Origin: Planctomycetota bacterium
Lineage (GTDB): Bacteria; Planctomycetota; Phycisphaerae; WQYP01
Length of the DNA stretch: 39,978 nt
Assembly: GCA_021847065.1 (NCBI GenBank)
Contig: JAJZVR010000003.1
Coordinates: forward strand, 1-39,978
Direction of reading: 5' to 3'
Below, in pieces: positions 23,700-39,975 of this stretch; the first letter of the stretch is position 1; every line of letters begins with the position of its first letter. The position numbers were made by a program, and so were the translations under genes. The notes under the pieces were generated by a model. The model was not told the DNA's origin. It saw nothing but the letters and a program-made list of their open reading frames with translations, and made no database searches.

Positions 23700-24842
23700 A
23701 TGTCGGTTATGAACACTACAAAAACCTCCGCCGGAAATGCTTCTTCGATTCCCATGTTCGAAATTTTAACGCAGTATCAAAGTCTGCGTGCTGAAATTGA
23801 AACCGCCATTCGCGGCGTGCTGGAGTCAACCGAATATATCGGTGGCAAGGCGTTGAAGGAATTTGAGCATAATCTGGGCTTACAATTTAACGGGCGCGCG
23901 GTGGCGGTTTCCAGCGGTACGGATGCGATATTGGCATCGCTGATGGCTTTGAACATTGGACGGGGCGATAAGGTTATCACTACTCCGTTTACTTTTTTTG
24001 CCACCGCGGGGTGTGTCAGTCGGGCCGGAGCGAGGCCCGTATTTGTGGATATTGATCCAACGACATTTCTCATGCGAACCGATACCATTTCCGCGGTGGC
24101 CGATTCGCAATGCAAGGCGGTTATTCCTGTTCATCTGTTCGGTCAAATGTGTGAGATGGATGGGTTGGCAGAATTATGCGGTAAGCACAATTTAATGATT
24201 GTGGAAGATGCGGCGCAGTGTATCGGTGCCAAAGACAGTCGGGGCAGAGTGCCCGGGGAGCTGGGACGCACCGCCTGCCTTTCTTTTTATCCCACCAAAA
24301 ATCTTGGAGCCGCTGGCGATGCCGGCGCGGTGATCGCCCGCGATCCAGCTCTGGCGAGTCGTCTGGAACAAACCAGACAACATGGGGAAACCAGCCGTTA
24401 CCATCATGCGTTTGTCGGCGGGAATTTTAGGCTTGACGGCATTCAGTGCGCGGTGCTGAACGTAAAATTAAAATATCTTGATAAGTGGAATAATCGCCGT
24501 CGTCAGATCGCCGCGTATTATTCATCACGATTTAAAAATACCGATGTCATAGCGCCCGTGGAGATACCCGGTACGCATCATGTGTATCACCAATATGTTG
24601 TCCGGGTTCCGCGTCGGGATGCAGCCAAAGAGTATCTGCAAAAGCACGGTATCGGATCGGCCATTTATTACCCCCGGCCCCTGCATCTGCAGGAATGCTT
24701 TCAAGATTTGGGTTATAAGGAAGGGGCCTTCCCGGTTGCCGAACAAGCCTGCCGTGAAGTATTGGCGCTGCCGGTATTCCCGGAACTCACCGACGCACAA
24801 ATTCAGCACGTCGCCGACACGCTGCTGGCGTTTTACCAATAA
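23700..24842 (+). CDS. DegT/DnrJ/EryC1/StrS-family aminotransferase
   Basis: GRAVAVSSGTDAILASLMALNIGRGDKVITTPFTFFATAG, VIPVHLFGQMCEMD, VEDAAQCIGA, CLSFYPTKNLGAAGDAGAV, GGNFRLDGIQCAVL. Confidence 0.95.
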   Translation: MSVMNTTKTSAGNASSIPMFEILTQYQSLRAEIETAIRGVLESTEYIGGKALKEFEHNLGLQFNGRAVAVSSGTDAILASLMALNIGRGDKVITTPFTFFATAGCVSRAGARPVFVDIDPTTFLMRTDTISAVADSQCKAVIPVHLFGQMCEMDGLAELCGKHNLMIVEDAAQCIGAKDSRGRVPGELGRTACLSFYPTKNLGAAGDAGAVIARDPALASRLEQTRQHGETSRYHHAFVGGNFRLDGIQCAVLNVKLKYLDKWNNRRRQIAAYYSSRFKNTDVIAPVEIPGTHHVYHQYVVRVPRRDAAKEYLQKHGIGSAIYYPRPLHLQECFQDLGYKEGAFPVAEQACREVLALPVFPELTDAQIQHVADTLLAFYQ

Positions 24843-24912
24843 CTTGCCACAGGTCCTGTTAAGAGAATCCGGGCGTTTTTTTTCCATCCCCACTGCGATT
24901 GGTGGTCACGGG

Positions 24913-26151
24913 ATGGCATTCTCCTTCTATGCCACAATCCGTCGATTTCTTCGCACGCTGCGAAGAAATCGACGGATTGTGGCGCAGGTCCAAAGTACCT
25001 GCCGTTCGCCAGGTGTGTATTTGATGATTGAGGACACCACGGCGGCGAGTTTTCCGATGCGTGAGGCGGCGGTGGGTTTGGGGCCGGTGGGAGAATACTA
25101 CACCCGTGGCTTCTGGCTACACAGCACGCTGGCGGTTCGCTGGCAGGGCCATCCGGAGGACCCCTACGAGGATCAGTCGCAGTTGATTGGGCTGGCGGGC
25201 CAAAGCGTGTGGGTACGCGACATTACAAAATCACGGCGTAAGGAAAAGAAAGCGGATCGCTTACGTCGTCAAGACAGAGAATCTGCCCGATGGGGGAAAA
25301 CGTTGGTGGCCAGTGGAGGTCCGGGCATTGGCGGAGCGCAATGGATTTATGTGGCGGACCGGGAGAGTGACATCTATGAAGTCTTCGCACGTTGTGGCCA
25401 AAGCGGATGCAATTTTGTGGTGCGTTCGGCGCATGACCGCGTCTTGGCCAAGATGGATCAACAATACCTCCACGACGCCTTGGCGGCGGCGGTGCCGCTG
25501 GGACGCCGCAGTATTGATTTGCCCGCCGGCAAGGGGCGGGCCGCGCGTTGTGCGACATTGGAGATTCGCGCCATGCGCGTACAACTGCGTGCTCCCCGTC
25601 GTCCCGGAACGCCTCTGGTCGATCAGGAGATCAATGTCGTGGAGGTTCGCGAAATCGAGGCCCCGGCGGATGCCGATCCCGTGCATTGGATTCTACTGAC
25701 GGATTTACCGACTGACACACTGCCGGAGCTATGGAAGGTGGTGGCAATCTATCGCCGCCGCTGGCTTATTGAAGAGTTTCACAAGGCCCTGAAGAGCGGG
25801 GTAGGGCTGGAGAAAAGCCAACTCGCGGAAGCTCGCAAGCTCATGGCGCTGGCGGGAATCCTATCGATCGTGGCGTGCTTTCTGGTGGGACTCAAGCTCC
25901 ACGCTCGATCCGATGACGCACTGCCATTGGACGAAACTCAAGTGGATCACGCAACACGCGTGATTCTGGAGAAAAAGGTTGGCAGGCCCAAGGAAGGGTG
26001 GACTTATCAAACCATTCTCGTGGCCATCGCCAGACTCGGTGGACACATTGGCCGCCGTAGCGACGGCCCCCCGGGCTGGCAGACCATCTGGCGCGGTTGG
26101 CAGCGACTGCTGCTACTAGTCGAGGGATTCCGCCTCGCCTCCGACGGATGA
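24913..26151 (+). mobile_element. IS4-family (Tn5-like) transposase, apparently N-terminally truncated
   Basis: YLMIEDTTAASF (first D), IYVADRESDIYE (second D), YRRRWLIEEFHKALKSG (YREK-type E). The DNA-binding N-terminus expected for this family is missing. Confidence 0.85.
24931..24983. repeat. Perfect 25-bp inverted repeat with 3-nt loop
   Basis: gccacaatccgtcgatttcttcgca-cgc-tgcgaagaaatcgacggattgtggc; arms 24931-24955 and 24959-24983 are exact reverse complements. Confidence 0.95.
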
Positions 26152-37653: not shown

Positions 37654-39246
37654 TTACGCATCCAGTGGCGACGCTTGGCCGACGGTTCGCTGGTTCATCG
37701 TGCGGATGCGGTTGATGGCCGCCAAGTAGGCTTTAGCGGAGGCTTCCAGAATATCGGTACTGAACCCTCGCCCGCGCACTTTGCGATCACTGTGTGTGAG
37801 TTCCACAGAGACCTCGCCTTGCGCTTCGCGCCCGCCGGTGATGCTGCGCACCTGAAATGAATCCAGACGCGCGCTAATCTTGGTCAATCGCTGGATGGTG
37901 GCAAACATGGCATCCACGGGGCCATCCCCCGTGGCGGCGTCGGTGATTTCCGCGCCGCTGCTATCCACCAACGTGACTGTAGCGGTCGCCACGCCATAGG
38001 TACCAGCCATTACCTGTAAACTTTTGAGCTGGAATAATTCGCGTTCGGTTTTCAATTGTTCATCAACCAGTGCTTCCAAGTCTTCATCGTAAATTTCTTT
38101 TTTCTTGTCGCAAAGCACCTTAAAGGCCGCAAACGCCCGATCCAATGCCGCTTCATCCAAGCGGTGGCCCAATTCTTCCAATCGCTGCCGAAACGCGTGG
38201 CGGCCACTGTGTTTCCCCAATACCAGTTTGTTCTGCACCCAGCCGACATCGGCTGGCGCCATAATCTCATACGTGCTGCGTTCTTTCAGGATGCCATCCT
38301 GATGAATTCCAGCTTCGTGCGCAAAAGCATTCTCGCCCACAATTGCTTTATTGCGCTGCACATGCAGCCCGGTCAAGCTGCTGACCAACCGTGAGCAGGG
38401 TACCAATCGCCGCGTGTTAATGCGCGTCGTGAACGGATATTGATCAGGGCGCGTGCGCATGGCCATAACGACTTCTTCCAACGCCGCATTACCGGCCCGT
38501 TCCCCAATGCCGTTTATGGTGCATTCAATTTGCCGCGCTCCGCCGGCCACCGCCGAGAGTGAATTCGCCACCGCCAATCCTAAATCATTGTGGCAGTGTG
38601 AACTGAAAATAACATTTTTCGCACCTGGTACATGGGCGATGAGATATTCAAACATCGCCCGATATTCACCGGGAGTTGCGTTGCCCACGGTATCCGGGCA
38701 ATTGATGGTCGTTGCGCCGGCTTCAATGGCGGCGTGAACCACTTCGGCGAGATAGTCCAATTCCGTGCGACTGGCATCTTCCGGGGAAAATTCCACATCG
38801 GAAACGTATTCTCGGGCCAACTTCACGTTCTCGATGGTCAGGCGGATAATTTCCTCTTTAGCCTTCTTGAGTTTGAATTCACGGTGAATTTTGCTGGTCG
38901 CAAGGAAAATATGAATCCTGCCCCGGGCCGCCTTGCGCACAGCTTCGCCGGCGCGGCGTACGTCGCGCTCGGTACACCGCGCGAGTCCCGCAACTGTGGC
39001 ATTCGTGATTTCTGAAGCTACAGCGCTTACGGCATCGAAATCTCCGGGACTGGTAATCGGGAAACCCGCCTCAATGATATCGACGCCCAATTGCTCCAGC
39101 GCATGGGCGATTTCCAGCTTCTCCGGCAAGTTTAATGATGCTCCGGGCGACTGTTCGCCATCGCGCAAGGTTGTGTCAAATATCAGCACCTGCGGTCTGG
39201 AATCGGTGCTGCTGGTTTCAGATGGATGAATACTGCCGGTGTCCAT
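37654..39246 (-). CDS. leuA: 2-isopropylmalate synthase
   Basis: IFDTTLRDGEQSPGASLNLPEKLEIAHALEQLGVDIIEAGFP, SSHCHNDLGLAVANSLSAVAGGARQIECTINGIGERAGNAALEEV, GKHSGRHAF, LeuA regulatory-domain C-terminus. Confidence 0.97.
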   Translation of the reverse strand: MDTGSIHPSETSSTDSRPQVLIFDTTLRDGEQSPGASLNLPEKLEIAHALEQLGVDIIEAGFPITSPGDFDAVSAVASEITNATVAGLARCTERDVRRAGEAVRKAARGRIHIFLATSKIHREFKLKKAKEEIIRLTIENVKLAREYVSDVEFSPEDASRTELDYLAEVVHAAIEAGATTINCPDTVGNATPGEYRAMFEYLIAHVPGAKNVIFSSHCHNDLGLAVANSLSAVAGGARQIECTINGIGERAGNAALEEVVMAMRTRPDQYPFTTRINTRRLVPCSRLVSSLTGLHVQRNKAIVGENAFAHEAGIHQDGILKERSTYEIMAPADVGWVQNKLVLGKHSGRHAFRQRLEELGHRLDEAALDRAFAAFKVLCDKKKEIYDEDLEALVDEQLKTERELFQLKSLQVMAGTYGVATATVTLVDSSGAEITDAATGDGPVDAMFATIQRLTKISARLDSFQVRSITGGREAQGEVSVELTHSDRKVRGRGFSTDILEASAKAYLAAINRIRTMNQRTVGQASPLDA

Positions 39247-39284: not shown

Positions 39285-39318
39285 AAAAAAACCCCGCGAG
39301 GGTCACTCGCAGGGTTTT
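39285..39318 (-). terminator. Intrinsic terminator in the leuA leader (attenuator terminator)
   Basis: Minus strand AAAACCCTGCGAG-TGACC-CTCGCGGGGTTTTTTT: 13-bp stem with one mismatch, then a T7 tract, ending about 40 nt before leuA. Confidence 0.9.
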
Positions 39319-39356
39319 CAAAATTCTTTTATAACAAAACAACCCTAAGAGCGACC
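39301..39356 (-). promoter_or_regulatory. Candidate antiterminator: 39341-39356 pairs with 39301-39316
   Basis: Minus strand GGTCGCTCTTAGGGTT pairs with AACCCTGCGAGTGACC (13/16 Watson-Crick plus one G-U), sequestering the terminator 5' arm. Confidence 0.75.
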
Positions 39357-39410
39357 AGTATTTCCCTCACTTAGTGCCAGTGCCAGCAGGTTGTTCAAAT
39401 TCAAAATCAT
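39345..39410 (-). CDS. Leucine-rich leader peptide for leuA attenuation (21 aa)
   Basis: ATG ATT TTG AAT TTG AAC AAC CTG CTG GCA CTG GCA CTA AGT GAG GGA AAT ACT GGT CGC TCT TAG = MILNLNNLLALALSEGNTGRS*; 6 Leu within the first 13 codons; lies between promoter and terminator. Confidence 0.85.
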   Translation of the reverse strand: MILNLNNLLALALSEGNTGRS

Positions 39411-39445
39411 CAGAAAAATCTTTCAAACTTTCCAATACATGTACT

Positions 39446-39477: not shown

Positions 39478-39975
39478 TCACTGTCGCAACCATTCAACAA
39501 TTTCCGACGCATAATAGGTAATAATAAACGCGGCTCCGGCCCGCCGAAACGCATGCATCATTTCCAGAACACATTGTTTTTCATCTATCCAACCCGCGTG
39601 CGCGGCCGCCTTAAACATGGCGTATTCCCCGCTTACCTGATATACCGCACATGGCACATCAACGGCCTGTGAGACCGCGGAAAGAATATCCAGATACGCC
39701 ATCCCCGGTTTCACCATGACCATATCTGCGCCTTCACGGACATCCAGCAGGGCTTCTCGCACCGCTTCGCGTGAATCCCGGCGAAAATCCATCTGGTACC
39801 CGCGACGATCGCCAAATTGGGGCGGAGATTCAGCCGCCTCGCGAAACGGCCCGTAAAAACCACTGGCATATTTTACGGCGTAACTGAGTATTGAAGTATC
39901 CTGATGGCCTGCGGAATCAAGCGCTGCGCGAATAGCCGCCACCGCATGATCCATCATGCCGGATGGTGCCACCAT
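39478..39975 (-). CDS. hemB: Porphobilinogen synthase, C-terminal part (truncated by window edge)
   Basis: [12 protein letters not shown]...[79 protein letters not shown]. Confidence 0.96.

Follow-up and report, generated by a model that had tools for sequence, protein, structure and literature searches.

Do the mutually exclusive RNA folds found directly before leuA in a Planctomycetota genome form a leucine attenuator of the classical type, and how widely does such an arrangement occur? The window, i.e., the whole stretch of 39,978 nucleotides that was analysed, belongs to a Planctomycetota MAG that is close to Phycisphaerae genomes. An initial annotation had described a terminator and an antiterminator sharing one arm and overlapping the stop codon of a short leader. 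All segments that it named were located correctly, on the minus strand. The switch and the leader lie wholly on this strand, and hemB, which is encoded on the same strand upstream of the leader, ends at 39478. In the order of transcription, the elements are as follows.

39474-39469 and 39451-39446, minus strand: promoter-like TTGACT-N17-TATAAA, read from the sequence
39345..39410, minus strand: leader ORF, MILNLNNLLALALSEGNTGRS and stop, 21 codons, six Leu
39395-39389, minus strand: region 1, AACAACC, in Asn-Asn-Leu codons; pairs with 39344-39338
39356-39341, minus strand: region 2, antiterminator 5′ arm GGTCGCTCTTAGGGTT, encoding Gly-Arg-Ser-stop
39316-39301, minus strand: region 3, AACCCTGCGAGTGACC, terminator 5′ arm and loop TGACC
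39300-39288, minus strand: region 4, CTCGCGGGGTTTT, followed by the T tract to 39285
39285..39318, minus strand: intrinsic terminator, hairpin AAAACCCTGCGAG-TGACC-CTCGCGGGGTTTT and seven T
39260-39255, minus strand: leuA Shine-Dalgarno sequence GAGGAG, outside the switch structure
37654..39246, minus strand: leuA, 2-isopropylmalate synthase (NCBIfam NF002086, E 3e-234)

The leuA product also matched TIGR00973 with 706 bits (cut-off 598.7). LeuA catalyses the first step specific to leucine synthesis, and the target gene thus lies within the pathway of the amino acid that would be sensed. A second 2-isopropylmalate synthase-like gene (G000:C294:8344-9876, L002) encodes a protein with 31% identity to the LeuA of the window. 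Both hexamers of the promoter-like site are kept in 7/7 members of the genus, and the predicted start of transcription lies near 39439, which would give an attenuated RNA of about 155 nt, the leader length stated in the initial annotation. A stricter consensus promoter scan did not report TTGACT-N17-TATAAA because its −10 rule demands a final T. Just past the T tract, the genus-conserved TATGGCATAAT (39284-39274, minus strand) resembles an extended −10 element and is a possible second leuA promoter. Elsewhere in the window, an ORF on the plus strand (24580-26151), resembling an IS4-type transposase by eye, overlaps the end of a DegT-like aminotransferase gene.

The leader peptide carries leucine at positions 3, 5, 8, 9, 11, and 13, encoded by TTG TTG CTG CTG CTG CTA and spanning 39404-39372. 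At the leucine frequency of the window, the probability of at least six Leu in the 12 codons after Met is about 7e-4. The codons are mostly common ones (TTG, CTG); CTA, which is used once here, makes up 3% of Leu codons in the genes of the window. The Shine-Dalgarno sequence at the leader start is weak. The stop codon TAG (39347-39345) follows the Gly-Arg-Ser codons inside region 2, as had been claimed for the antiterminator arm, and is separated from leuA by 98 nt. Since the stop lies within the antiterminator, it is probably base pairing and not the function of the peptide that dictates the last residues, in many cases Gly-Arg-Ser or Ala-Arg-Ser.

The central claim of the initial annotation, that 39301-39316 pairs either with 39288-39300 or with 39341-39356, held in the energy calculations. 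Region 3 together with CTCGCGGGGTT gives the terminator, which is followed by seven T (39291-39285). In the alternative helix 2:3, 15 of the 16 positions are paired (13 Watson-Crick pairs and two G-U pairs, with one U-C mismatch), and the terminator loop TGACC pairs with GGTCG of region 2. The energies of the isolated hairpins were −22.9 kcal/mol for 2:3, −19.3 kcal/mol for 3:4, and −16.5 kcal/mol for 1:2. The reciprocal match, loop included, had been judged unlikely to be incidental, and we found the same with 500 dinucleotide shuffles: the best upstream partner of region 3 and its loop reached −24.6 kcal/mol, the shuffled sequences gave −11.4 ± 2.3 kcal/mol, and none of the 500 was as good. 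The two-way pairing described earlier is real but incomplete, as a third element, the protector 1:2, had been missed. It is formed by 39395-39389 with 39344-39338 and by CTAAG (39374-39370) with CTTAG (39349-39345). Judging by its pairing, this helix is the usual 1:2 protector, and with it the locus reads as a full 1:2:3:4 attenuator.

The effect of the ribosome was modelled by folding the leader RNA with a masked 30-nt footprint, placed on each of the Leu codons in turn or on the stop. For a transcript ending at 39301, i.e., before region 4 is made, the computed P(2:3) was 1.00 wherever the ribosome stalled at a Leu codon and 0.00 when it was at the stop. The antiterminator is competitive, and the proposed reading thereby passed the energy check that the initial annotation had named as able to refute it. 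It had been proposed that the position of the ribosome at the stop codon decides the fold. That position does block 2:3, and in the model it would represent the outcome with plentiful leucine, but the choice itself falls upstream, at the Leu codons. With the complete terminator and no ribosome, 1:2 and 3:4 both had P 1.00, 1:2 being part of the MFE fold; with the ribosome at the stop, the computed P(3:4) was 1.00. Once region 4 is present, most stalled states have the terminator as their preferred equilibrium fold (P 0.51-0.95), and the switch must therefore work kinetically, with 2:3 forming first. Such kinetic working is usual for attenuators. The partial transcript without a ribosome likewise prefers 2:3 at equilibrium, which means that the default state is kinetic too.

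Judged by its sequence, the locus has all the defining features of a classical attenuator, and we consider it highly probable that it is a ribosome-mediated leucine transcription attenuator controlling leuA. From the observed sequences, folding energies, and conservation, we infer the following course of leader translation, stalling, termination, and leucine response. RNA polymerase would start near 39439, and the Leu-rich leader would be translated by a ribosome. A shortage of charged tRNA-Leu would make this ribosome wait at the Leu codons and cover region 1, so that region 2 could pair with region 3 ahead of the synthesis of region 4; no terminator would form, and leuA would be transcribed. 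With ample leucine, the ribosome would reach the stop and cover region 2, 3:4 would form, and transcription would terminate. If the leader is not translated, 1:2 and 3:4 would form together.

The elements of this switch are conserved among relatives. In the genus, region 1 is conserved as ACAACC/ATAACC, and region 2, which is also conserved in the family, is nearly invariant as CGCTCnTAGGGT. At the 24 family loci, the peptides diverge widely (e.g., MSLTLLNLGLAGLWPGRW, MLLLLTRVISAGS, MTLQLQLQLLSLLTDRS), and the Leu codons and the terminator are kept. In 24/24 loci, the segment that pairs best with the terminator 5′ arm is located at the stop codon or immediately behind it, and the loop varies along with region 2: L046 combines TGATC with GGATCGCTC, and the window TGACC with GGTCGCTC. 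Within the family, 82% of the cells of helix 2:3 are paired, compared with about 30-49% for slid versions. The pair-level covariation of 2:3 in the family was not significant (four pairs with double changes, matched by 125 of 500 shuffles) because the core is invariant. Helix 3:4 has 95% of cells paired in the 24 family sequences, with acceptable pair counts; helix 1:2 is less conserved across the family, at 69% with limited pair counts.

A covariance model built from the 24 family loci, without leuA sequence, was run over 298 genomes. It matched 25/28 family genomes and 15 others in other Phycisphaerae families. Twelve of these 15 out-of-family matches lie immediately upstream of leuA, and three (G061, G089, and G148) do not lie before this gene. 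Of these three, at least the G061 match was rejected as a leuA leader, being an ordinary terminator that follows a gene for a Clp-like ATPase. One model match not before leuA, L107:336-510 (E 0.002), has the ORF MNSKQQILTAVHVEQASPENAMFSTVAWCCAVRGGTP with TAGGGTT at its stop, followed by a terminator whose 5′ arm matches; these features would fit either an attenuator for some other amino acid or a chance match.

For the class-wide comparison, 73 upstream regions were used, 60 chosen by the LeuA match alone and 13 from model matches, and a leader was counted as Leu-rich when it had at least five Leu within 10 residues. Such leaders were found before leuA in 50 of 73 class genomes (42/60 among those chosen by LeuA alone) vs. 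2/73 on the antisense strand. Both a leader and a terminator were present in 48 of the class regions; in 38 of these, the segment pairing best with the terminator 5′ arm overlapped the leader stop, while 100 shuffles gave a mean of 13.6 and a maximum of 22. Fisher's combination with one median p per family gave about 3e-10. The pairing of a locus's own regions 2 and 3 (−21.5 kcal/mol) was stronger than that of family-swapped regions (−15.9 kcal/mol), a comparison in which base composition and relatedness are incompletely controlled; swaps were worse in 12/13 families. Outside the class, 16 of 23 Planctomycetota genomes have Leu-rich leaders (antisense, 0), for example MQIHNLLSLSLLLNLLTQARS and MRNYNLLNLNLLRSLLLPARS; their stop often lies in AGGTC[TC]TAGG, opposite CCTGAGACC of the terminator. 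Leaders also occur at single Kiritimatiellae and Verrucomicrobia loci. Before leuA in L055 and L057 (Kiritimatiellae), longer leaders with the common start MINEWTIA..VLPGLL and with terminators are present; there, the partner for the antiterminator lies ~14-34 nt before the stop and not on it.

Some leuA leaders with LLLLR-like ends have no intrinsic terminator, namely L160, L169, L172, and L167 (f16), L161 and L162 (f20), L170 and L166 (f13), and L171 and L164 (f8). In f13, f16, and f20, a small hairpin, TGCGCC-nnTA-GGCGCA, carries the stop codon in its loop. From their sequences, the terminator-less leaders are possibly under different control. These Phycisphaerae families, which keep the Leu leader and lack the terminator, and the actinobacterial leuA leaders, which are not classical attenuators (PMC1262725), would fit an effect mainly on leuA translation or on Rho-dependent termination, as suspected for the actinobacterial leader. 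For the window we regard such an effect as improbable, as its strong seven-T terminator has a 5′ arm specifically complementary to the leader stop region, and the Shine-Dalgarno sequence of leuA is free of the structure. It is very unlikely, in light of the class-wide comparison, that the hairpin serves only to terminate transcription of hemB, the gene upstream, and that the Leu-rich ORF and the alternative pairing arose by chance. A hemB transcript, coming from the same strand, would indeed meet this terminator, but the leader is separated from hemB by a promoter-like site. Moreover, the leader, the stop-overlapping partner, and the terminator recur together before leuA in many families, and the family-trained model found leuA at most of its outside matches. 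A sensor other than the translating ribosome (uncharged tRNA as in a T-box, a metabolite riboswitch, or an RNA-binding protein) is equally hard to credit: the choice between terminator and antiterminator is common to all such systems, but no Rfam family was matched at gathering score in the window and ten related loci (T-box RF00230 included), no credible family emerged at permissive thresholds either, and the phylum-wide constant is a Leu-rich frame of changing sequence with no fixed aptamer.

A 2010 survey described amino acid leader-peptide systems as shown only in Proteobacteria and Actinobacteria and added Firmicutes (PMC2965389), and a 2013 survey suggested a gamma-proteobacterial origin of attenuator motifs with few transfers (PMC3766115). 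Leader genes of Planctomycetes are mentioned in PMC4833913 only for reinitiation distances, and in the open-licence literature we found no earlier report of amino acid attenuation in Planctomycetota. In the same genome, whose contigs are incomplete, no convincing leader was found upstream of the ilvB, trpE, hisD, and leuC homologues. We see an even chance that the ancestor of Planctomycetota, and possibly of a larger part of the PVC group, already controlled leuA by leucine attenuation, with the leader stop codon within the antiterminator, and that several families have since gone over to a terminator-less form. If true, it would contradict a gamma-proteobacterial origin of amino acid attenuators with little spread, and phylum-wide leucine attenuators would revise the host range drawn in the surveys. 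Such attenuators would also imply coupling of transcription and translation in Planctomycetota, a phylum with a long-disputed cell organisation, and would offer a simple reporter test of this coupling.

The leuL-leuABCD system of E. coli and Salmonella has a leader peptide with Leu codons, four mutually exclusive RNA segments, and an intrinsic terminator, with leuA as the first gene. The window likewise has a Leu leader, four segments, an intrinsic terminator, and leuA as the target. It differs from leuL-leuABCD in its peptide, in its Leu codons, which are spread over codons 3-13, and in the position of leuA beside hemB with no evident leuABCD operon. The Rfam family Leu_leader (RF00512) gave no gathering-score match in the window and the ten related loci and was absent among the matches with E ≤ 10 in a permissive search. 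The ilv system of Staphylococcus aureus is described with a leucine-rich attenuator peptide before branched-chain amino acid genes (PMC5794164); it shares the Leu-rich leader peptide with the window and differs in phylum and target operon. The actinobacterial LEU element also has a Leu-rich leader peptide before leuA, but it works through a pseudoknot plus a stem that includes the Shine-Dalgarno box and was described as not being classical attenuation (PMC1262725), whereas the window has a terminator and an antiterminator. The mechanism is old, of the textbook E. coli type, and what appears new, as judged from the open-licence literature, is its host range, the Planctomycetota.
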